DNA from: Celeribacter neptunius
GTDB taxonomy: Bacteria; Pseudomonadota; Alphaproteobacteria; Rhodobacterales; Rhodobacteraceae
DNA length: 64,000 nt
Reading direction: 5' to 3'
Assembly: GCF_900113955.1 (NCBI RefSeq)
Contig: NZ_FORH01000003.1
Location: 310,001 to 374,000 of the forward strand
The first letter of the stretch is position 1; every line of letters begins with the position of its first letter. The notes below the pieces were generated by a model. That model was not told the DNA's origin. It ran no database searches and worked only from the letters and a program-made list of their open reading frames with translations. The position numbers and the translations under genes were made by a program. This document shows positions 1,615-18,988 of this stretch, in pieces.

Positions 1615-2151
1615 ATGAAAATCGCCTACACGATGGCGCCGGGCCGCGGCGATATGGACGGCCTGCTGATTCAGGTTGCGAACAGACTGATGTCGCGCGG
1701 TTTCCGGCCTGCGGGCACGGTTCAGATTAATACCGACCGTCCCGGAGGCGGCCCGTGCGACATGGACATCAAGGTCCTGCCCCTGGGCCCGATCCTGCGC
1801 ATTTCTCAACATCGCGGCGCCCACGCCCGAGGATGCCGGCTTGATCCGAATGCCCTGGAGACGGCAGTGGCGCAGGTCTCCACCGACATCGCCACTGAAG
1901 AGCTCAGCCACGTCCCGGACTGTCTCATCGTGAACAAATTCGGCAAACACGAAGCGGAAGGCCGCGGCTTTCGCCCGGTTATCGCAGATGCCCTGATGCG
2001 GGAGATCCCCGTGCTCGTAGGGGTCAACAGCCTGAACCTCGAAGCCTTTCAGACATTTTCCGGTGGCCTGGCCGTTGAGGTCCCCGCCACTGTCGCTTCC
2101 ATGCTCGAGTGGTTCGATCACAGTCTGTCCTGTGTCGAGACTACCGGCTGA
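1615..2151 (+). CDS. DUF2478 family protein
   Basis: This 178-residue protein fits the DUF2478 family, whose members often lie beside molybdenum transport or molybdoenzyme genes and are sometimes described as NTPase-like. Supporting motifs are the glycine-containing N-terminus IAYTMAPGRGDMDGLL, the central ISQHRGAHARGCRLDPNALE and the strongly conserved IVNKFGKHEAEGRGFRPVI. It follows moeA by 12 nt and probably shares its transcript, which supports a link to molybdenum or cofactor handling. The biochemical function is unknown. A Walker A loop is not clearly present, so I do not claim ATP binding. Confidence 0.7.
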   Translation: MKIAYTMAPGRGDMDGLLIQVANRLMSRGFRPAGTVQINTDRPGGGPCDMDIKVLPLGPILRISQHRGAHARGCRLDPNALETAVAQVSTDIATEELSHVPDCLIVNKFGKHEAEGRGFRPVIADALMREIPVLVGVNSLNLEAFQTFSGGLAVEVPATVASMLEWFDHSLSCVETTG

Positions 2152-9404: not shown

Positions 9405-10112
9405 ATGACAGCTCAAAGCGTTCTGATCGTCACCCATGGCAGTCCCTCGGACCCGGAGCCGCAGGAGATGGCAGTCAACGCACTGGCCCGGCAGGTCGCG
9501 CAGAAGCGGCCGGATCTCACCGTCGCGGGCGCCACGCTGGCCGCTCCCGGGCAGTTCGAGGCGAGAGTAGCACAGCTGGGCCGCCCGCAGATCTTTCCCT
9601 TTTTCATGTCCGACGGGCATTTCATCCAGCATATTCTGGCCAAACGGGCCGCCCCGTTCGATCTGCGAATTCTGCCCCCTTTCGGGGTCTCACCGGAACT
9701 GCCCGGTCTGGTTGCCACCCGACTGTCCCGGGTTCTCGCCGCAAAAGGCTGGCGCAGCGCCGAGACCGGCCTGCTCATCGCGGCACATGGCGGTCAGACC
9801 TCGGCGCGCAATGCCACGACCACCCGCGATCTGATGCAACGGGTCGGGGCACAAATCGAATTTCGCGAAATCCGCGTGGGCTTTGTCGAAGAACCCCCTT
9901 TCCTGAACGACGTGGCAAAGGAAATGGGCCAGGCCATCTGCCTGACGTTCTTCGCCCAGCGCGCCGGACACGTTCTCGAGGATCTTTCCGCCGCCTTCAA
10001 ATGCAGCGGGTTCTCGGGGCTGATCCTGCCGCCCTTCATCGAATGGCCGGAAACCCCGGATATGATCGCGACGATCCTCGACGCTCACCCGGGCGAGTCA
10101 GACAGGCTATGA
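9405..10112 (+). CDS. CbiX/SirB-like sirohydrochlorin chelatase
   Basis: The 235-residue cytoplasmic protein has the two-lobed class II chelatase fold. Evidence is VLIVTHGSPSDPEPQEM at the N-terminus, FPFFMSDGHFIQHIL, LIAAHGGQTSARNA in the second half and FFAQRAGHVLEDL near the end, where the histidines are candidate metal ligands. CbiX/SirB enzymes insert Fe2+ or Co2+ into sirohydrochlorin. At the end of the nir operon it would supply siroheme from the precorrin-2 made by NirE, after oxidation by an enzyme encoded elsewhere. It starts 1 nt after nirN and converges with ubiV, overlapping by 6 nt. Metal specificity cannot be read from the sequence. Confidence 0.75.
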   Translation: MTAQSVLIVTHGSPSDPEPQEMAVNALARQVAQKRPDLTVAGATLAAPGQFEARVAQLGRPQIFPFFMSDGHFIQHILAKRAAPFDLRILPPFGVSPELPGLVATRLSRVLAAKGWRSAETGLLIAAHGGQTSARNATTTRDLMQRVGAQIEFREIRVGFVEEPPFLNDVAKEMGQAICLTFFAQRAGHVLEDLSAAFKCSGFSGLILPPFIEWPETPDMIATILDAHPGESDRL

Positions 10113-11006
10113 GGCTTCGGCGGACCATTCCGCCCCGAAGGCCCCGGTCAGAAACCCGTCGGACAGATCCATCGCCGGATCAAAAGCCTCGAGTTTGCTC
10201 ACCAGATCCTGCCCGGAAATCTTGCCGGAGAGACGATCGGCATAGCCCGACACCAAGCTGTCGAATGCTCCGATCTGCGGCGACAGCCGGATCGCGGAGA
10301 CTCCCGCCTCTTGCAATGCCGTGATCTGCATCGCCACCGTCGCGGTGCTGTGGCTCAGGGTCTGCACGCCGTTGACGACGAGGAATTTCTGATCGTCGAG
10401 CGTTTCCACCTCCCGACCGTCCGGGTCTTCGCCGCAGACGAACTGGCAATTGTCCTTGGCCCGGTCGTGCAGCCGTGCATGATAGCATCGTCCGGAGATC
10501 GCCAGCGGCAGCCGGCCATGGCCCCAAACCTCGACCGCGACACCGAGCTCGTCGCCAACCCTGCAAAGCGCCGCCACCGCCTCGATCGGCAATTCCGGCG
10601 GCAGACAGACCCGCGTGGCCCCGCGCCGCGCCAAAAACCGCAGGGCGCTGTCATTATAGACATTGACCAGCGGCCCCACCCAGAATTCCCGATCTTGGGG
10701 CAGCTTCTGCAAGGCCGAAAGATCGTTGATCTCGATCGGCAGCCCCATGTCCATCAGATCCGCCGTGAGCTTGCGTTCGCGCTTGAGCGTGATCAAGCCG
10801 AGGCTGGTCAGCGCGACCTCCTTACCCGCAGCCAAAAGCGCCTCGACGGCCTGCGGAATCTCCGCCTGCCAGAAGGGTAGTCGCTTCGAACAAACGACCT
10901 CTCCCAGAACGACACGTGTCGCGTCACTCTCAGCCAGCGCAGCATAAAAGGCGCGCTGCTGTTCTGCCTGCCAAAAAAACTGGTTCGGTCCAATGGTCAG
11001 ATCCAT
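10107..11006 (-). CDS. ubiV: O2-independent ubiquinone hydroxylase subunit UbiV
   Basis: This U32 peptidase-like protein of 299 residues is the partner of UbiU in the O2-independent hydroxylation of the ubiquinone ring. Conserved features are IGPNQFFW at the start, VLGEVVCSKRLPFW and the cysteine-rich CYHARLHDRAKDNCQFVC, which hold the ligands of a 4Fe-4S cluster in characterised UbiV. The ATG at 11006 has AGGAGA upstream; 27 extra in-frame codons before it overlap ubiU and are not needed. It is the last gene of the ubiT-ubiU-ubiV unit on the minus strand. Confidence 0.9.
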   Translation of the reverse strand: MDLTIGPNQFFWQAEQQRAFYAALAESDATRVVLGEVVCSKRLPFWQAEIPQAVEALLAAGKEVALTSLGLITLKRERKLTADLMDMGLPIEINDLSALQKLPQDREFWVGPLVNVYNDSALRFLARRGATRVCLPPELPIEAVAALCRVGDELGVAVEVWGHGRLPLAISGRCYHARLHDRAKDNCQFVCGEDPDGREVETLDDQKFLVVNGVQTLSHSTATVAMQITALQEAGVSAIRLSPQIGAFDSLVSGYADRLSGKISGQDLVSKLEAFDPAMDLSDGFLTGAFGAEWSAEAS

Positions 11007-11067
11007 CCGCCGTTCTCCTGCTCTCGTCCTGCTATTTTCCTCGGTTGCCACCGCCGATCGTCGCGGC

Positions 11068-12048
11068 CTATCGCCAGGTCTTGGCATAGGCGCCGGTGGT
11101 CGCGGCCTGACCCTCGGTCAGTTTGGCAAGCGCCGATTTCGGCAAGGGTTGACCGGCCGCCTGGGCCTCCACCGCGCCCCGAAAGGCCCGCACCACCTGT
11201 GCGACATAGGCCCGCGAGCGTTGCCGCCCCTCGATCTTCAGCGCCGTCACCCCGGCCTTGGCCAGTTGCGGGATCAGCTCCGTCGCGTCCAGGCTCACCG
11301 GATCTTCAAAGATATGGCCGGTCTGCGCCCCGGAGGTGAAACAGCCCTTGCACAGGGTCGGGTAAGGCGCCGGGGCGTCTTTGGGCCGACGATGGATCGT
11401 GTAGCCCCCGAGCCGCGCCGCCAGCTCGCCGCCCTCCTCGGCATAGACCACATGGCTCGCGGGCGAACAGACACCGTTCATATTGGGCGATTTGCCTGTC
11501 GCATAGGAGGACAGCGAACAGCGCCCCTCGGCCATGACACAGAGCCCGCCGAAGACGAACACCTCGGTCTCGACATCGATTTCCGAATTGATCGCCGCGA
11601 TTTCCGCCACGGTCAGCACCCGCGGCAGCACGACACGACGCACGCCAAAGGTCTCGGCATAGAAATTGATCGCATCCGGATTGGCCGCGGCGGCCTGAAC
11701 CGACAGGTGCCGGCGCAGCGCCGGGTGATGCTCCGCGGCATAGTCCAGAAGTCCGAGATCGGCGAGGATCACCGCATCGGCCCCGGCCTGTTCCGCGTCC
11801 CGCACGGCCGCATGCCAAAGCGCCTCGGCACCCGCGCGCGGGAACGTGTTGATCGCGACCAGCACTTTCGCGCCATGGACATGGGCAAACTGCACCGCCT
11901 CTGCCAGATCCTCGCGCGAAAAATTCAGCCCCGGAAAATTGCGGGCATTGGTTTCATCGGCAAAGCCGCAATAGACCGTATGAGCACCGGCCTTTACCGC
12001 CGCACGCAACGCCGCCGGGGTGCCTGCGGGACAGACAAGTTCCATCAT
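11068..12048 (-). CDS. ubiU: O2-independent ubiquinone hydroxylase subunit UbiU
   Basis: This U32 peptidase-family protein of 326 residues forms a heterodimer with UbiV. It begins ELVCPAGTPAALRAAVKAGA and carries the U32 signature cysteines in FVFGGLCVMAEGRCSLSS, NMNGVCSP and PTLCKGCFTSG, which bind a 4Fe-4S cluster in characterised UbiU. The complex hydroxylates ubiquinone precursors without O2, with prephenate shown as the oxygen donor in later work on E. coli. The ATG at 12048 overlaps the ubiT stop by ATGA and has GGAGAG before it. It is expected to be induced together with denitrification genes. Confidence 0.92.
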   Translation of the reverse strand: MMELVCPAGTPAALRAAVKAGAHTVYCGFADETNARNFPGLNFSREDLAEAVQFAHVHGAKVLVAINTFPRAGAEALWHAAVRDAEQAGADAVILADLGLLDYAAEHHPALRRHLSVQAAAANPDAINFYAETFGVRRVVLPRVLTVAEIAAINSEIDVETEVFVFGGLCVMAEGRCSLSSYATGKSPNMNGVCSPASHVVYAEEGGELAARLGGYTIHRRPKDAPAPYPTLCKGCFTSGAQTGHIFEDPVSLDATELIPQLAKAGVTALKIEGRQRSRAYVAQVVRAFRGAVEAQAAGQPLPKSALAKLTEGQAATTGAYAKTWR

Positions 12049-12581
12049 ATGAGCTCTCCAAAAGGATCGGTGCGGTGCAGATGCAGCCCGGTGAACCGCT
12101 CGGCGCGGGCACAGGCCTCTCGCATGGCAGAGGCAAACGGCCCTGAAAGCGCGGCCAGTTCCTCGGTCAGGTCCAACTCGGCATCATCCATCGCGTTGCG
12201 CAGGGCCAGAGCGGCAGAGGTATCGCCCTCCACGGTCAGATCACGCGAGAAGAACAGCGCATCGCCATCTTCGGCCCCGTGCATCATCGCCAGAAAATGC
12301 GACAGCGGCCCGGCCAGCCGCACGTCGTGCTCCGGGGCCGCACCACGCCGATGCGCGCTCATCCGCCCGGGCGCAGGGCAGAGCAGAAGCACATAGGGCA
12401 AATCGGTAATGTCGATCAGAAACCTGCGCCCGGCATAGTCTCCGAGACGCCTCAACATATCGGGGTGATCCTTGATCATCCGTGTCGTGACGCTCTGAAG
12501 AAACCGGCTCAGGGGCAGAAGCGGCAAAGGTCTCAGCGCCATTCCTACCGGGCGGGGAATGCGCGGGGCATCGCTGGGCAT
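12045..12581 (-). CDS. ubiT: Ubiquinone biosynthesis accessory factor UbiT
   Basis: This SCP2-like lipid-binding protein of 178 residues serves as the accessory factor of the anaerobic ubiquinone pathway, analogous to UbiJ in the aerobic one. The core includes LSRFLQSVTTRMI, a conserved GRRFLIDITDLPYVLLL strand region and VRLAGPLSHFLAMMHGAEDGDALFFSRDL. The start is supported by GAGGAG 8 nt upstream. It is the first gene of ubiTUV and faces ubiD, with one FNR-type box in the 114 bp between the starts. Confidence 0.88.
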   Translation of the reverse strand: MPSDAPRIPRPVGMALRPLPLLPLSRFLQSVTTRMIKDHPDMLRRLGDYAGRRFLIDITDLPYVLLLCPAPGRMSAHRRGAAPEHDVRLAGPLSHFLAMMHGAEDGDALFFSRDLTVEGDTSAALALRNAMDDAELDLTEELAALSGPFASAMREACARAERFTGLHLHRTDPFGELI

Positions 12582-12633
12582 GTGGGCTCCTCATGGTTCT
12601 CCCCCCTTCTATGTGGCCCGAGCGCCGCCGGGA

Positions 12634-12647
12634 TTGATTTTCGTCAA
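12634..12647. promoter_or_regulatory. FNR/Dnr-type box between ubiT and ubiD
   Basis: The 14-mer TTGATTTTCGTCAA keeps both TTGAT and GTCAA half-sites with the four-base spacer. Its centre is 59.5 nt from the ubiT start and 55.5 nt from the ubiD start, so a single site can serve both divergent promoters. The assignment to Dnr/NnrR rather than FnrL is inference. Confidence 0.75.
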
Positions 12648-12695
12648 ACCGGAGTGCGCCGCTTGCTGATAGCGAGAGAAAAAATCGAGAGACTC

Positions 12696-14192
12696 ATGCG
12701 ATCCCTACCCGTCTTTTCCGATCTGCGCGCCTTTCTTGACTGGGCCGAGGCCCAGGGCGATCTGCGTCCTGTACCGCACCCCGTCGCCGTCGAGCATGAA
12801 ATGACCGCCGTCCAGCTCGCCGCCTTGCGCCGTGGCGGCCCGGTTTTGCGCTTTGACCATGCCACGGTTCAGGGACAACGCACCGCCATGCCCGTCGTCA
12901 GCAATCTTTTCGCCACGCCGGAACGCGTCGCAGCCGGCCTCGGCCTCGGCCTTGGCGAAATACCCGAGTTGGGGGCGTTTCTCGCCGCCCTGCGCGCGCC
13001 GGCGCCGATCGAGGGGATGAAAGATGCATTGTCGCGCTGGCCAATGCTCAGGGCCGCGCTACGCACCCGTCCGAAAATCCGTCGCAGCGCGCCGGTTCAG
13101 GAGGTGGTGCGGGAAATCGGAAGCGGCGCCGATCTCACCGATCTGCCGGTGCAGACGCCCTGGCCCGAGGATGCCGGACCGCTCATCACCTGGCCGGTTG
13201 TCATCACCCGGCCGCAGGACAGCACGCAGAACCAGACCGCCCGCTACAATCTCGGCGTCTACCGTACGCAGGTTCTGGGGCCGGATCGGCTGATCATGCG
13301 CTGGCTCGCCCATCGGGGCGGCGCGGCGCATCACCGGACATGGCTGGCAGCCGGCGCGCGCATGCCGGTGGCAATCGCGCTCGGTGCAGACCCGGCAACG
13401 CTTCTCTCCGCAGCGCTTCCGCTACCCGAGACCGTGTCGGAACTGACCTTTTCCGGCGTGTTGCGTGGGGCGCGCAGCGAATTGGTGACGGCGCAGACCG
13501 TGCCCTTGCTCGTCCCTGCCCATGCCGAGATCATCATCGAAGGCTGGATCGACCCGACCGAGACCGCCCCCGAAGGCCCCTTTGGCGATCACACCGGCTA
13601 TTACAATTCGGTGGAATCCTTTCCGGTCATGCGGGTCACCGCGATCACCCATCGGCGCGACCCGCTCTATCTCACCACCGTAACCGGGCGGCCGCCCGAT
13701 GAACCCTCGGTGATCGGCGAGGTTTTCAACACGCTGTCTCTGCCGGTGATCCGGGCACAGATCCCCGAAGTGACCGACCTCTGGCTGCCGCCTGCTGCCT
13801 GTTCCTACCGCATGGCGGTGATCCAGATCGACAAGCGCTACCCCGGTCAGGCGCGGCGGGTGATGGCCGCACTCTGGGGCATGCTGCCACAATTCTCCTA
13901 TACCAAGATGCTGGTGGTGGTGGACCGCGACATCGACCCGCGCAACTGGGACGATGTGGCTTGGGCGCTGGCCACCCGCATGGACCCGGCCCGCGATGTC
14001 ATGATCCTGAAGGATACACCGATGGACTATCTCGATTTCGCCTCTGAGAAAGAGGGGCTCTCCGGTAAACTCGGCCTCGATGCGACAACCAAGATCGGCA
14101 CCGAAACCAGCCGGGACTGGGGCAAGGTGATGCAGCTCAGCCCCGAGCATGTCAGTCGCGCCGAGACGATCCTGTCGGAGCTCGGGTTATGA
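12696..14192 (+). CDS. ubiD: 4-hydroxy-3-polyprenylbenzoate decarboxylase UbiD
   Basis: This prenylated-FMN-dependent decarboxylase has 498 residues, the usual UbiD length. Motifs include TARYNLGVYRTQVLGPDRLIMRW in the prFMN-binding domain, EIIIEGWIDPTETAPEGPFGDHTGYY and ITHRRDPLYLTTVTGRPPDEPS with the catalytic acidic/Arg network. It removes the carboxylate from 3-polyprenyl-4-hydroxybenzoate in ubiquinone synthesis. The chosen ATG is preceded by a modest GAGAGA; an upstream TTG could add about 11 residues. It overlaps ubiX by ATGA. A catabolic UbiD homologue is possible, but the context with ubiX and ubiTUV favours quinone synthesis. Confidence 0.88.
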   Translation: MRSLPVFSDLRAFLDWAEAQGDLRPVPHPVAVEHEMTAVQLAALRRGGPVLRFDHATVQGQRTAMPVVSNLFATPERVAAGLGLGLGEIPELGAFLAALRAPAPIEGMKDALSRWPMLRAALRTRPKIRRSAPVQEVVREIGSGADLTDLPVQTPWPEDAGPLITWPVVITRPQDSTQNQTARYNLGVYRTQVLGPDRLIMRWLAHRGGAAHHRTWLAAGARMPVAIALGADPATLLSAALPLPETVSELTFSGVLRGARSELVTAQTVPLLVPAHAEIIIEGWIDPTETAPEGPFGDHTGYYNSVESFPVMRVTAITHRRDPLYLTTVTGRPPDEPSVIGEVFNTLSLPVIRAQIPEVTDLWLPPAACSYRMAVIQIDKRYPGQARRVMAALWGMLPQFSYTKMLVVVDRDIDPRNWDDVAWALATRMDPARDVMILKDTPMDYLDFASEKEGLSGKLGLDATTKIGTETSRDWGKVMQLSPEHVSRAETILSELGL

Positions 14193-14749
14193 GCCGGGTG
14201 GTCCTCGGCGTCTCCGGAGCCTCCGGCGCCATGCTGGCCCGTGATTGCGCCGCGGGGCTTTCCCGCCTCGGCGTGGAAATCGATCTGGTCTGTTCCCCCA
14301 TGGCGGCACGGACGTTCGAATTGGAGTTGGGGCCGGATGCGCTTGCACATCTGACCGCCAAGGTCGCGCGACGGCACACCCCCGACGATCTGGGCGCCAC
14401 CATTGCCTCTGGCTCTCATCCGGTTCATGGCATGATCATTGCGCCCTGCTCCATGCGCACACTGGCCGCCATTGCCCATGGGCTCGACGACAATCTTCTG
14501 ACCCGCGCAGCGGGGGTCCAGCTCAAGGAACGCAGGCCGCTGATCCTGTTGACCCGCGAGGCGCCCCTGACGCTGGCGCATCTGCGCAACATGACGGCGG
14601 TGACCGAAATGGGCGCCATTGTCCTGCCGCCCGTCCCGGCCTTTTATCTGAAACCGCAAAGCGTCGGCGAAATCAGCGCGCAGATCGCAGCACGGGCAAT
14701 CGATCTCCTCCAGATCGGCCCGGCTCAGGCACAGGCCTGGTCCGGGTGA
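14189..14749 (+). CDS. ubiX: Flavin prenyltransferase UbiX
   Basis: This 186-residue protein makes prenylated FMN, the cofactor of UbiD, from FMN and dimethylallyl phosphate. The flavodoxin-like start VVLGVSGASGAMLAR, the IIAPCSMRTLAAIAHGLDDNLLTRA core and the late LPPVPAFYLKPQSVGEI are typical UbiX motifs. It is coupled to ubiD by an ATGA overlap, so enzyme and cofactor maker are produced together. Its 3' end overlaps the convergent P450 gene by 25 nt. Confidence 0.93.
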   Translation: MSRVVLGVSGASGAMLARDCAAGLSRLGVEIDLVCSPMAARTFELELGPDALAHLTAKVARRHTPDDLGATIASGSHPVHGMIIAPCSMRTLAAIAHGLDDNLLTRAAGVQLKERRPLILLTREAPLTLAHLRNMTAVTEMGAIVLPPVPAFYLKPQSVGEISAQIAARAIDLLQIGPAQAQAWSG

Positions 14750-16176
14750 CGCGGGGTGAAACGCAACCTTATCCCGTCCCGGCCCCGCACGGTCAGTTGC
14801 GCCACCGGAACCGGCGGGTTGTCTTCATCCAGCGAGACACGGTAGCGCCGCATCAGCATCGCCAGAATGAGCGGCCCCTCCGTCATCGCAAAGGCCGATC
14901 CGGGACAGACCCGCGCGCCTTTCGAGAATGGCAGATAGGCGATGCGCGCGCTGTCGCGTCCCGCCGGCGTTTCCCACCGCCCGGGGTCGAACCCGTCGGG
15001 GTCTTGCCAGAACAATTCGTGACGATGCAGATGCCAGGGGCTGATCACCACCTGCGCGCCCTTCGGCACCGAGCGGCTGCGAAACCGCGTCGGACAGGCC
15101 GCCTCGCGCAGATACATCGGCACCGGCGGGTAGAGCCGCATCGTCTCGCGAAACACTGCACGCGCTGTTTTAAGCTTTGAAACGGTCGAGAAATAGATCT
15201 TTTCCGGGTCGATCGCACGTTGTGCCTCACCGGCCAGGCGATCCTGCCACTTCGGCGAAAGCGCCAGAAGATAAAGCGCCCAGGCCAGAGCGGCCGCCGA
15301 GGTCTCATGCCCGGCCAGAAGGAAAATCCCGACCTGATCCACCATCTCTTCGCGTGTGAAGCAGAACCCGCTCTCGGGGTCGCGCGTGGTCATGATCCGG
15401 GTCGCGAGATCATCAGGCGCCGTCCCGGTCGCGATCTGTTCCGCGCGGGCATCGACCAGCTGACGGATCAGATCGCGGATCTGCCACGCGCTTTCGCGGG
15501 TCTTGCGTGATCTGAGCCGCGGCACCCAGCGGGGCAAAGGCAGAAAAGACGCAGAATTGATCATCGGGCGCGAAGCCTGATGGGCCTTGAACGCGGCAAA
15601 CACCGCCTGTGCGGTGCTATCCTCGACCGGCAGGGAAAACAGGGTGCGGAAGATCACATCGAGCGCGATATGGCTCATCTGCGGCTCGACATCGATCACC
15701 CGACCGTCGGCCATCTCCGCCAAACGATCGCCCCCGGCCACAGCGGCATCCCACATGGCGGGGAACACCTCACGCAGGCGTCCACTCTCGAAGGCCGGAT
15801 CGATGATCCGGCGTTGCCGCTGCCATTCCGCGCCGTTGGTGATGAAAATCGAATGCCCCAGAAGTGGCACCAGCCCCTCGAACAAGCGGGTCGATTTCGG
15901 AAAATCTTCCGGGCGCTCGCTCAGCACCCGGTCGATGAGCTCCGGATCGTTGCACAGGAAAGAGCGAAAGAACGGCGTGCGAAATTCCGCCATCCAGGCC
16001 CGGTAGAGGCGCACGGGCTGGGCGGAGAGAATGTCTTTTCGAAACCGAAGGAGATAGGAAAACAGCGAAACCCGCTCGGGACGTGGAGCGGGTTTCACCG
16101 GTTTGGGACACATAGATGGTTGATGAGATGCGGCGCGGGGATTGTCGAACTTCATGCGCGCGCCATCGTCCTTCAT
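14725..16176 (-). CDS. Cytochrome P450
   Basis: This soluble-type P450 of 483 residues has intact signatures: the I-helix LLAGHETSAAALAW, the K-helix ETMRLYPP and the heme loop FSKGARVCPG with Cys424 as thiolate ligand. The I-helix acid-Thr pair indicates an O2-activating monooxygenase rather than the fungal CYP55 NO-reductase type. The ATG at 16176 has AGGAGA upstream, while a longer frame would run into the regulatory box. An FNR-type box lies 57.5 nt upstream, placing this gene in the denitrification regulon. Its substrate and redox partner are unknown, and no ferredoxin gene is adjacent. Confidence 0.9.
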   Translation of the reverse strand: MKDDGARMKFDNPRAASHQPSMCPKPVKPAPRPERVSLFSYLLRFRKDILSAQPVRLYRAWMAEFRTPFFRSFLCNDPELIDRVLSERPEDFPKSTRLFEGLVPLLGHSIFITNGAEWQRQRRIIDPAFESGRLREVFPAMWDAAVAGGDRLAEMADGRVIDVEPQMSHIALDVIFRTLFSLPVEDSTAQAVFAAFKAHQASRPMINSASFLPLPRWVPRLRSRKTRESAWQIRDLIRQLVDARAEQIATGTAPDDLATRIMTTRDPESGFCFTREEMVDQVGIFLLAGHETSAAALAWALYLLALSPKWQDRLAGEAQRAIDPEKIYFSTVSKLKTARAVFRETMRLYPPVPMYLREAACPTRFRSRSVPKGAQVVISPWHLHRHELFWQDPDGFDPGRWETPAGRDSARIAYLPFSKGARVCPGSAFAMTEGPLILAMLMRRYRVSLDEDNPPVPVAQLTVRGRDGIRLRFTPRHPDQACA

Positions 16177-16226
16177 TACTTCTCCTTTCGCTGCGTGAAA
16201 GGTGTCATTCTGCTCCGATTCGACCA

Positions 16227-16240
16227 TTGACTTTGATCAA
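16227..16240. promoter_or_regulatory. FNR/Dnr-type box upstream of the P450 gene
   Basis: TTGACTTTGATCAA has both half-sites and the four-base spacer. It lies in the 153-bp gap between the end of nnrU and the P450 start, both on the minus strand, so it can only drive the P450 gene. Confidence 0.75.
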
Positions 16241-16329: not shown

Positions 16330-17010
16330 TCAAGGCCAAACGACGACACCGATGACCAGCCCGTGCAAAGACAGCAGCGCGCCATAAAGTCCGATCCCGA
16401 TCAGCAGGCGGGCCAAAGCCTGCCCCCGCTGGTCCCGCGCCGGCCAAATCGTCCCCTTGCGGGTCGCGGCCCAAAGCGCCTCATGGTCCTGACCGCGCGC
16501 GCTCAATTCGCGGCGCTTGCGGCGATCGATCATGCGCCCTCCCATGAGCGCAAAGGCACCGAACGCACCGAACAGAATGACATGGGCAAGATCGCCGTTG
16601 GACAGGAGATGGGCAAAGGCCCAGAGCGCCAGCGCGAGCAAGAGCGGATGCCGGGTCAGTCGCACGACACCCGGATGCGCCGGATCGAACCGCGCATTCC
16701 GGGCGCCGCCGAAAGAGAACGGATTGGGCCTCGCAATGCTCGCAGCCAGCAAGAGACACACGAGGAACATCACCGTCAGCGTGACATGCGGCATCCATGG
16801 TGCCGTGTCCCAGATCGGGGCGAAGGGCGCCCGGTTGGCGGCCACGATGAGCCAGACGAGGATGGCGGTGGACAGGATCGAATAGGCGATCCCGAATCCG
16901 CGCGCTCCGACACGCGCCACGACCCAGGGTTTGACCGGCGGACGCACCGGAATGGCATGGCTGAGGAAAAACACCACAAAGGCCAGTATGAAAGATCCCC
17001 ATCCGGTCAT
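16330..17010 (-). CDS. nnrU: NnrU family membrane protein
   Basis: This 226-residue integral membrane protein matches NnrU, a denitrification-associated protein related to the NnrU/isoprenylcysteine methyltransferase-like membrane fold. About six hydrophobic segments are visible. The conserved VVRLTRHPLLLALALWAFAHLLSNGD contains the His-Pro motif of this superfamily, and the N-terminus has FFLSHAIPVRP. NnrU is needed for normal nitrite or NO metabolism in Rhodobacter, but its reaction is not established. It follows the peroxidase gene by one nucleotide on the same strand and is probably cotranscribed with it. Confidence 0.88.
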   Translation of the reverse strand: MTGWGSFILAFVVFFLSHAIPVRPPVKPWVVARVGARGFGIAYSILSTAILVWLIVAANRAPFAPIWDTAPWMPHVTLTVMFLVCLLLAASIARPNPFSFGGARNARFDPAHPGVVRLTRHPLLLALALWAFAHLLSNGDLAHVILFGAFGAFALMGGRMIDRRKRRELSARGQDHEALWAATRKGTIWPARDQRGQALARLLIGIGLYGALLSLHGLVIGVVVWP

Positions 17011-17011
17011 G

Positions 17012-18118
17012 TCATTGCTCCCTGGCCTTCAACAGATGTTCGTACCGCCGATCGGTGAGCGTTTCGAGAAAGGCGATCAACGCCTCGATATCCGCGTCGC
17101 TCAGCACCGGTCCCTTGATCAAGAGCCCGACCGACAGGGTTTCGGCCACAGCGACCTTGCCATAGCTCGCGCCGGTTTCCGGATTGGTTTGCCATTCAGA
17201 CTCCGTGCTTTGGTAGCGGTTGTAGAATCGCACCGCGGTTTCGAGATCTTCGAAAACCCCATTATGCATATAGGGACCGGTGATGGCGACATTGCGCAGC
17301 GAGGGGGTCTTGAACCGCCGAAGGTGCTTTGCTTCGCCGGTCACCTCCGCCAGACCGCCATCCTGCGACGCGGCGACGGGGTTTTCTGGCACCCCGGTGT
17401 TGAAATAGCGATAAGAGGTGAAAAGCTCGGGCTGCGTCCCGCTCGAATGGCAGGCGCTGCAGTTGCTTGCCTGCGGATCGAAGAACAGCTCTGCACCGCG
17501 CTGTTCAAGCGGTGTCAGGGCGGCTTCGCCCCGCAATGCGCGGTCGAATTTACTGTCGAACGGGGAAAAGGACGACCGCCTCTCGAAAGCGGCAAGGGCC
17601 TCGGTCATCGCCGCGAACCCGGTGTCTGTCCGGGTCAGAACCCCGGCATCGTAGAGCGCCGCGAACCTCCGTCGATACGCCGCATCTTCGTTCAGCCGTG
17701 CCACGACAGCCGCCCGGTCCGGCATTTGCATCTCATTGGGATCGAGAACCGGCCCGGCGGCCTGTTCGGCCAGTGTCGCGGCCCGTCCGTCGTGGAAAAA
17801 GCCGCCGATCAAATGCCCACTGGCGTCCGTGCTCCGCTCCGGCGTGAGCGCCGCATATCCCAGCGCAGGGGCATTGCGACGGCCCTTGGCAATGCCATCG
17901 GCACCGGTCGAAACCGCCCCCGAGGGATCGGCGAAACCCTGATCCGGGTCGTGACAGCTGGCACAGGATTGTGTCCGGTTGAGCGAGAGGTTCGGATCAA
18001 AAAACAACGTCTCTCCCAACTGTTCCAAGGCCGTCATCTCGGCGACGGCCTGCACCTCGGCAGGTTTGGGAGAGACCACGACAAATGCCGCAGCCGTCAG
18101 GAGAGCAAGGCGTTTCAT
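17012..18118 (-). CDS. Di-heme cytochrome c peroxidase family protein
   Basis: The periplasmic protein of 368 residues has a signal peptide and two c-type heme sites, CASCH near residue 52 and CSACH near residue 220, as in CcpA/MauG-type di-heme enzymes. The segment GPYMHNGVFEDLETAVRFYN, with a conserved His and Met, is typical of the family C-terminus. The bacterial peroxidase reduces H2O2 using electrons from small cytochromes c. An FNR-type box is 74.5 nt upstream, consistent with low-O2 induction. A MauG-like oxidative maturation role cannot be excluded. It is probably cotranscribed with nnrU. Confidence 0.88.
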   Translation of the reverse strand: MKRLALLTAAAFVVVSPKPAEVQAVAEMTALEQLGETLFFDPNLSLNRTQSCASCHDPDQGFADPSGAVSTGADGIAKGRRNAPALGYAALTPERSTDASGHLIGGFFHDGRAATLAEQAAGPVLDPNEMQMPDRAAVVARLNEDAAYRRRFAALYDAGVLTRTDTGFAAMTEALAAFERRSSFSPFDSKFDRALRGEAALTPLEQRGAELFFDPQASNCSACHSSGTQPELFTSYRYFNTGVPENPVAASQDGGLAEVTGEAKHLRRFKTPSLRNVAITGPYMHNGVFEDLETAVRFYNRYQSTESEWQTNPETGASYGKVAVAETLSVGLLIKGPVLSDADIEALIAFLETLTDRRYEHLLKAREQ

Positions 18119-18185: not shown

Positions 18186-18199
18186 TTGACGATTATCAA
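18186..18199. promoter_or_regulatory. FNR/Dnr-type box between peroxidase and regulator genes
   Basis: TTGACGATTATCAA has perfect half-sites. The box centre is 74.5 nt from the peroxidase start and 97.5 nt from the start of the Crp-family regulator, so it could serve both, including autoregulation or FnrL control of the regulator. Confidence 0.75.
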
Positions 18200-18289: not shown

Positions 18290-18988
18290 ATGCGTCATGA
18301 TATCGCAAGCATTGCCAAAAACTCCCTGTTGCTCAAGAATGCTCCCGCGCAGTTGGTCGACCCGCTTCTCGAGGGGGCACGCGTCACGCAGCACGCACGC
18401 GGGGAGACAATTTTTATTCAGGACGACCCGGCGGATGCGATCTATATCGTCGCGCGCGGCTGGATCAAACTCTACCGCATCGCAGCAAATGGTTCGGAAG
18501 CGGTCGTCGGCACGTTCACCAATGGCCATTCCTTTGGCGAGGCGGTGGCGCTCCGTTCGGATCGCTATCCGGTCTCAGCGGAAGCGGTTACCGAGTGCGA
18601 ACTGATCGCAATCAACGCGCATACGCTCATCCGGCTTCTGGAGAGCAATCCCAAGATTGCGATTTCCATGCTGACGGCCACCTATGCCCATCTGCACAAT
18701 CTGGTCGATCAGGTCGAGCAGCTCAAATCCCGCACCGCGCCGCAGCGGGTCGCGGAATTCCTGCTCGAGCTTTCGGATTGCGACGATGGCGGCTGCACGG
18801 TGACTTTGCCCTATGACAAGATGCTGATCGCCGGGAGATTGGGCATGAAACCCGAAAGCCTGTCGCGCGCCTTTGCAAAGCTCAAGGAACAGGGCGTGAA
18901 AGTGCGCCAGAATGCCGCCGAGATTACCGATGTGGAAGCCCTGCGTGCCTATGTCGAAGAGGACCCCGCCGCCGCCTGGTCGCGCTGA
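18290..18988 (+). CDS. Crp/Fnr-family denitrification regulator (Dnr/NnrR type)
   Basis: This 232-residue protein has an N-terminal cyclic-nucleotide-fold domain (GETIFIQDDPADAIYIVARGWIKLYR, then GHSFGEAVAL) and a C-terminal winged helix with LIAGRLGMKPESLSRAFAKLKEQGV. It lacks the N-terminal cysteine cluster of FNR, as expected for Dnr/NnrR-type NO sensors that use heme. The recognition-helix sequence KPESLSR resembles Dnr. AAAGG precedes the ATG by 7 nt. It sits between the peroxidase and nor genes and is the best candidate for the factor that reads the boxes in this window. Its NO response is inferred from family and context. Confidence 0.85.
   Translation: MRHDIASIAKNSLLLKNAPAQLVDPLLEGARVTQHARGETIFIQDDPADAIYIVARGWIKLYRIAANGSEAVVGTFTNGHSFGEAVALRSDRYPVSAEAVTECELIAINAHTLIRLLESNPKIAISMLTATYAHLHNLVDQVEQLKSRTAPQRVAEFLLELSDCDDGGCTVTLPYDKMLIAGRLGMKPESLSRAFAKLKEQGVKVRQNAAEITDVEALRAYVEEDPAAAWSR

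Follow-up and report, generated by a model that had tools for sequence, protein, structure and literature searches.

O2-using enzymes encoded in an anaerobic regulon raise the question of what they hydroxylate and where their O2 comes from. A 64,000-nt stretch of the Celeribacter neptunius genome (contig NZ_FORH01000003.1; hereafter, the window) contains a cytochrome P450 gene in a nir/nor island that also harbors ubiT, ubiU, ubiV, and ubiD (Table 1). An earlier note on this DNA had placed the P450 gene between ubiX and nnrU, which is borne out by the matches of the neighboring genes, and had regarded it as part of the denitrification regulon. Here, we consider which process the gene accompanies, how it may be controlled, and which chemistry its product would perform.

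The P450 gene and its island

The P450 ORF is open and intact, running from an ATG at 16176 to a stop codon at 14725 (483 aa), and overlaps the ubiX ORF tail to tail by 25 nt (14725-14749). On the nir/ubi side, NCBIfam and Pfam matches identified a nirE-type methyltransferase gene, two more cytochrome d1-type genes, which we take to be nirF and nirN, AhbA/AhbB-type genes, nirJ, ubiV, ubiU, ubiT, ubiD, and ubiX. The nor side contains NnrU, a MauG-type di-haem gene, a Crp/Fnr regulator, nor genes, NnrS, and a nirS-type cytochrome d1 gene; norC and norB were called by cytochrome c and COX1 matches, while the names norD and norQ are in part presumed.

Table 1. Positions of the P450 gene, its sequence elements, and selected neighbors in the window
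Feature	Position	Strand	Basis or remark
Cytochrome P450 (form B), 483 aa	14725..16176	minus	PF00067, E 6.6e-73; second copy besides the core P450 on contig C5
Ribosome-binding site GGAG of P450	16182..16185	minus	Sequence
I-helix AGHETS, O2-activating Glu-Thr pair	15298..15315	minus	AGHET invariant in 20/20 form-B P450s
Codon of haem-ligand Cys424	14905..14907	minus	Cys invariant in 20/20 form-B P450s
FNR-type box, TTGATCAAAGTCAA on P450 strand	16227..16240		7 such boxes in the window vs 0.82 expected
TTGA-N6-TCAA box between ubiT and ubiD	12634..12647		Pattern match
TTGA-N6-TCAA box between MauG-type gene and Crp/Fnr gene	18186..18199		Pattern match
ubiV, ubiU, ubiT (O2-independent ubiquinone hydroxylation genes)	10107..12581	minus	NCBIfam equivalogs above cut-offs
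ubiD and ubiX	12696..14749	plus	UbiD-family and UbiX-family matches
nnrU	16330..17010	minus	PF07298, E 8.9e-52
MauG-type di-haem gene	17012..18118	minus	PF03150, E 8.9e-48
Crp/Fnr-family regulator	18290..18988	plus	Family match

The encoded protein has the motifs AGHETS, ExxR, and FSKGARVCPG. Its PF00067 match, ExxR motif, and Cys haem ligand place it in the cytochrome P450 superfamily, and its I-helix acid-alcohol pair is that of O2-activating monooxygenases. AGHET, ExxR, and the Cys ligand are invariant among 20 aligned P450s of the window's type (form B, see below), so that the O2-activating I helix recognized in the earlier note is a real feature. A loss of this motif in the Rhodobacter members was considered and ruled out, as their sequences read AGHETG and thus keep the acid-alcohol pair. 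In its catalytic residues, the protein matches a normal O2-activating P450.

Among the matches listed, the best PDB sequence match was 7WZL, annotated as a "putative cytochrome P450," followed by CYP97 and CYP4B1. The structure model (mean pLDDT 74.9) was nearest to CYP97C1, P450 BM3, and CYP4B1 at 22-26% identity, among the best 50 of 1727 matches in a fold search. Among the matches listed, the named P450s of solved structure that come closest in sequence and fold are thus CYP4B1, CYP97, and P450 BM3 (CYP102), which are alkane, fatty-acid, or carotenoid hydroxylases. Members of one CYP family share over 40% identity; the window P450 therefore does not belong to CYP4, CYP97, or CYP102, has no fused reductase, and resembles these enzymes only in how it may work. 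No redox partner gene for the window P450 was recognized.

Two forms of a widespread Rhodobacteraceae P450

The C. neptunius genome contains eight places that match PF00067, some of which are parts of one gene. One of them (G000:C5:585382-586731) encodes a core P450 that is 60% identical to the window P450 over most of its length and has the same motifs. This core copy follows a gene for a 405-aa hydrolase-like protein and lacks a strict FNR-type box, while the window P450 has one. We call P450s of the core type form A and those of the window type form B, labels that rest on the neighboring genes within 1.5 to 10 kb. The window P450 is a second, divergent copy of a P450 that is widespread in Rhodobacteraceae. 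The idea that it is the core P450 of the family moved to a new place was ruled out, as the genome keeps the core copy on contig C5.

All 20 genomes examined from the genus have a match to this P450, and a form-A copy was present in each of the 19 in which the context was read. In a sample of 394 genomes of the family, 328 have a P450 relative at an E value of 1e-130 or better. Form A is present in most of the family and form B in few genomes. Form A follows the 405-aa hydrolase-like gene, often after a CcdA-type or M48-type gene. The 405-aa protein (L043, 6163-7380, and relatives) appears as a conserved membrane hydrolase-like protein with a GHSSGAH motif; its gene precedes the P450 in 54 of the 79 named loci, and three members that were scanned gave no Pfam match at 1e-5.

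Two trees have a branch that sets form A apart (supports 94/70 and 90/84). No such branch unites form B, which consists of two or more lineages beside form A, and the P450 of genome G377 (locus L126) shifts between the trees. Form B is a class of genomic context more than a single clade. The window P450 belongs to a lineage with those of L122, L124, and L125 and with Rhodobacter P450s (100/100 in the second tree).

Genomic company and predicted control of form B

A first set of 20 form-B loci comprised the window, those of genomes G007 and G377, and 17 found through an AlkB survey. As 17/20 are AlkB-linked by the search route, the presence of AlkB in 18/20 of them is a biased count. Among 25 form-B loci collected solely by P450 search, AlkB lies directly downstream of the P450 in 20, and ubi genes occur in the stretch examined in 13. 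At 11 of 18 junctions in the first set, an in-frame ATG of AlkB overlaps the P450 stop codon (ATGA). The AlkB of L125 matches the solved alkane monooxygenases 8F6T and 8SBB. AlkB is absent from the window's island, where no remnant with a convincing score was found; the genome has only a core AlkB-type gene (58% identical), on C14. In the window and in G377, the P450 stands by ubi genes without AlkB, and the G377 P450 follows ubiD-ubiX on one strand.

The ubiTUV genes are close to the P450 in 11/20 loci of the first set, supporting a recurring place beside anaerobic ubiquinone genes, and a divergent Crp-type gene is found in 11/20 as well. Aside from nnrS in the window itself, NnrS-like matches were seen in five of the 18 stretches L109-L126. 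The window's arrangement of nnrU ahead of the P450 has one counterpart, in L125, where the order is NnrS, NnrU, a SLAC1-type gene, P450, and AlkB. The P450 has norB within 25 kb in two cases only, the window (at 6 kb) and G332 (at 22 kb), although most assemblies are in contigs. Of the conserved synteny sought in related denitrifiers, the recurring order with ubi genes held up, while proximity to nir/nor genes was confined to the window and G332.

Several further features of these loci were observed. A DUF2478 gene in the window (1615-2151) adjoins moeA, and several form-B relatives also have DUF2478 or similar genes next to AlkB and UbiV. An aldehyde dehydrogenase gene adjoins AlkB on the opposite strand in L120, a single case. 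In Rhodobacter capsulatus DSM 1710 (L129, 7918-11762), two form-B-like P450s flank a Crp-type gene and follow genes of the MsrB, thioredoxin, and MsrA types; of the two, the second groups with the copy of G007.

UbiU is present in 20/20 form-B genomes of the first set (18 above the curated cut-off and two just under it) and in 8/8 of a named set. A cNorB match was found in 11/20 and 4/8, respectively, leaving 9/20 of the first set with none, and cNorB was not found in R. capsulatus DSM 1710. In the 394-genome sample, UbiU at one cut-off occurs in 15/19 form-B genomes versus 53/375 others (Fisher, p = 2e-9), this cut-off missing four form-B genomes that do have UbiU; the corresponding values for cNorB are weaker, 10/19 versus 92/375 (Fisher, p = 0.013). 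For these tests, every genome that was not read went into the group without form B; reading covered the top 30 P450 places and the 17 AlkB-B places, which makes 19 form-B genomes a lower bound. Since form B tracks UbiU better than cNorB, it appears as an accessory of a low-oxygen regulon more than of denitrification; its tie to O2-independent ubiquinone synthesis is closer than that to NO reduction. Known form-B carriers account for 10 of 102 cNorB genomes and 15 of 68 UbiU genomes, both lower bounds (92 and 53 are not known carriers). Form B is needed for neither NO reduction nor O2-independent ubiquinone synthesis, and with so few cNorB genomes known to carry it and so many carriers without a cNorB match, membership in the denitrification regulon as such, as proposed in the earlier note, was not upheld.

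The box upstream of the window P450, TTGACTTTGATCAA (16227-16240), has two perfect half-sites, and its center lies 57.5 nt from the P450 ATG, confirming from the sequence the FNR-type box reported at that distance. The distance refers to the ATG with a ribosome-binding site; the script that chose the start codons of the relatives takes an inner ATG in the window, which gives 78.5 nt. The number of TTGA-N6-TCAA boxes in the window was reached in 0/100 shuffles, although some of the seven look nonregulatory (10783 inside ubiV, 22057 inside norQ, and 35485 inside an ApbE-type ORF). Between nnrU and the P450, which are oriented alike, 153 nt separate the two genes, and the P450 box sits in this gap; no divergent gene therefore accounts for the box, and its assignment to such a gene was ruled out. 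The box between the MauG-type and Crp/Fnr genes could also serve the genes from the MauG-type gene to the P450.

Strict boxes occur within 260 nt upstream in 12/20 form-B and 0/43 form-A loci of the first set. In the named set, they occur within 300 nt in 17/24 and 0/54, against chance expectations of 0.08 and 0.18, and a relaxed pattern occurs in 18/24 and 3/54; the count covers 78 of the 79 loci, L145 being left out for its short upstream DNA. Among the 25 form-B loci of the named set, six (L138, L149, L151, L157, L158, and L180) lie on contigs that, by their length, are those of first-set loci; 13/18 have a strict box after their removal. No strict box was found within 260 nt upstream in L122, L124, and L125, the nearest kin of the window in the first set, while 4/5 Rhodobacter P450s of the same lineage have one, and R. 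capsulatus has a version with one end base changed. The box characterizes form B without being present throughout.

Downstream of 20 form-B boxes, the match to TATAAT peaks at a distance of 21-23 nt (2.85 versus 2.06; 1/5000 plain base shuffles as high, relatedness of the loci not being corrected for), which is where activation from -41.5 would place a -10 element. The set thus supports an activating placement of the box, although the window's own -10 match is weak. Since form-B relatives often carry boxes and ordinary copies do not, the FNR-type control postulated in the earlier note is likely for the window P450. The genome encodes an FnrL orthologue (451.9 bits versus a cut-off of 300), and a single base distinguishes the window box from the FnrL site of R. 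capsulatus ccoN given in excerpts of PMC4634722. According to the same excerpts, R. capsulatus ubiD has an FnrL site with unchanged expression. A Crp/Fnr or Dnr-type regulator could bind the P450 box instead of FnrL.

The boxes near nirE, norC, and nirS (2213, 24453, and 25738) start with TTAAC, unlike those of the P450 and ubi genes, which are of the TTGA type. We had considered the TTAAC boxes to be NO-type boxes, which was dropped, as their Dinoroseobacter shibae counterparts are termed Fnr/Dnr sites in excerpts of PMC5398030; given this naming, different regulators cannot be assigned to the two kinds of boxes. Of the 20 form-B boxes compared for a -10 element, 9 run on into TGAC, which gives an overlapping GTCA-A-TGAC palindrome; a second, overlapping site may be present.

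Source of oxygen and possible role of the P450

The nearest folds are alkyl-chain hydroxylases among others, and AlkB is the common partner of the relatives, so that an alkyl-type substrate is favored; both point to hydroxylation of a long alkyl-type chain by the window P450. We therefore favor, tentatively and with a probability of roughly 0.45, the reading that an O2-dependent P450 was recruited into an Fnr-type low-oxygen regulon, where it would hydroxylate a hydrophobic alkyl, acyl, or isoprenoid chain with scarce O2. Under this reading, falling O2 would lead an FNR-class activator (most likely FnrL) to bind the predicted box and switch on the P450, and the same activator probably switches on the O2-independent ubiquinone genes, as suggested by the boxes, the gene order, and the relatives. 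The enzyme would then draw its electrons from a partner encoded elsewhere and run on the little O2 available. In relatives, the genes of the P450 and AlkB often form a tight pair, of which the window has the P450 alone. The O2 would be the residual O2 of a microoxic zone, which is the simplest answer to the question of its source.

Another source is suggested by a single relative. In L116 (G085), a box is followed on the same strand by the P450 gene, AlkB, and a gene for a 791-aa qNOR-like protein (12324-14699), the three genes being separated by 52 and 82 nt. In putative NO dismutases, a coordinating His is replaced by Asn and the catalytic Glu by Gln, and the quinol site, for which His328 and Asp746 are named, is lost (Ettwig et al. 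2012; excerpts of PMC3413370). Compared by eye with Geobacillus qNOR (3AYF), the L116 protein has H560N, E581Q, H328T, E332R, and D746G, that is, changes of all these kinds, and is a putative NO dismutase that could supply O2 within the same gene run. It recalls the intra-aerobic denitrifiers M. oxyfera and HdN1, in which denitrification-side genes accompany O2-using hydrocarbon oxygenases (excerpts of PMC3413370). It is quite unlikely, in our estimate, that form-B P450s, with AlkB, generally work in full anoxia on dismutase-derived O2, as proposed for strain HdN1. The gene row of L116 and the frequency of NnrS or cNorB in the same loci or genomes speak for this, but L116 is the only such locus: neither the other loci examined nor additional sequence from seven other form-B genomes contained a dismutase-like gene, and the nine first-set genomes without a cNorB match argue in the same direction. 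The window's genome, listed as 99.99% complete, has four COX1-family genes, none of them dismutase-like, and only cNorB matched a dismutase query, at 24%. A bolder variant, to which we grant a slightly better but still low chance, is that form-B P450 and AlkB, two unrelated oxygenases, belong to the anaerobic ubiquinone regulon as a dedicated module for "oxygenation without air," fed by trace O2 or by O2 that a dismutase encoded in their operon makes from NO, and that the window P450 is a stripped-down version living on O2 traces or the O2 of neighbor cells.

The P450 may also serve ordinary oxic metabolism, with the box repressing it in anoxia or being unused. Its O2-dependent chemistry, the lack of a box in the nearest kin, and the weak -10 match of the window are in keeping with this, as is the FnrL repression of some R. 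capsulatus genes (excerpts of PMC4634722), but the -10-like peak after the form-B boxes fits activation, ordinary copies have no box, and the place by anaerobic ubi genes recurs; we consider this unlikely, yet less so than any of the other alternatives. A role in the ubiquinone pathway itself, for instance as an O2-dependent ring or side-chain hydroxylase at the oxic-anoxic change, would explain the recurring ubiTUV/ubiDX neighborhood, present without AlkB in the window and G377, and the constant presence of UbiU; it is made doubtful, somewhat more than the dismutase-fed reading, by the 53/68 UbiU genomes of the sample that are not known carriers, by the usual AlkB partner, which fits alkyl chains better, and by core copies that sit elsewhere. 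The earlier note had also suggested that the enzyme consumes NO or uses peroxide, neither of which we favor, given the intact Glu-Thr pair and the common AlkB partner. Known peroxygenase P450s (CYP152) lack the acid-alcohol pair, which is invariant in form B, so that a peroxygenase using H2O2 is very improbable despite the MsrB-, thioredoxin-, and MsrA-type genes ahead of the R. capsulatus P450 and the MauG-type di-haem gene near that of the window. Least credible is a P450nor-like NO reductase acting in denitrification, to which the nir/nor island would be a fitting place; CYP55 has an altered I helix without the Glu-Thr pair kept in AGHETS, no CYP55 appeared among the matches listed (60 of 153 by sequence and 50 of 1727 by fold), and carriers without cNorB exist.

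A search of the open-licence PMC literature yielded no recognized description of this type of P450 in anaerobic metabolism, in line with the earlier note, which knew of no role for it in denitrification. Judging by its title, a 1993 paper by Tully and Keister reportedly provides a precedent for anaerobic or microoxic P450 expression. P450s of the Bradyrhizobium gibberellin operon are switched on at low O2; they are of different families, act in a diterpenoid pathway, and, in excerpts of PMC7273348, apparently do not lie by ubi or nir/nor genes. The P450 gene cpx is predicted to belong to the NifA regulon of several Rhizobiales (excerpts of PMC4999443). Hyphomicrobium denitrificans likewise clusters O2-independent ubiquinone and nor genes (ubiXDTUV-nor) with lipid-metabolism genes next door; excerpts of PMC12423496 mention fatty-acid synthesis genes and no P450 there, and place the P450 Hden_0697 in a sulfur-oxidation locus. 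Excerpts of the main texts of the RedB and R. capsulatus FnrL papers name no P450. As low-O2-induced P450s are known elsewhere, this kind of P450 is not new, whereas its partners are. The association of an O2-using P450, often with AlkB, and FNR-type boxes beside O2-independent ubiquinone genes is real, and we found no paper describing it.

The two such P450s of R. capsulatus, a standard laboratory organism, make direct testing possible. If the L116 gene encodes an NO dismutase, intra-aerobic metabolism would extend to Rhodobacteraceae, with the P450 as a suggested user of the O2. Should form-B P450 and AlkB indeed form a module of the anaerobic ubiquinone regulon, Rhodobacteraceae would carry out oxygenase chemistry during denitrification.
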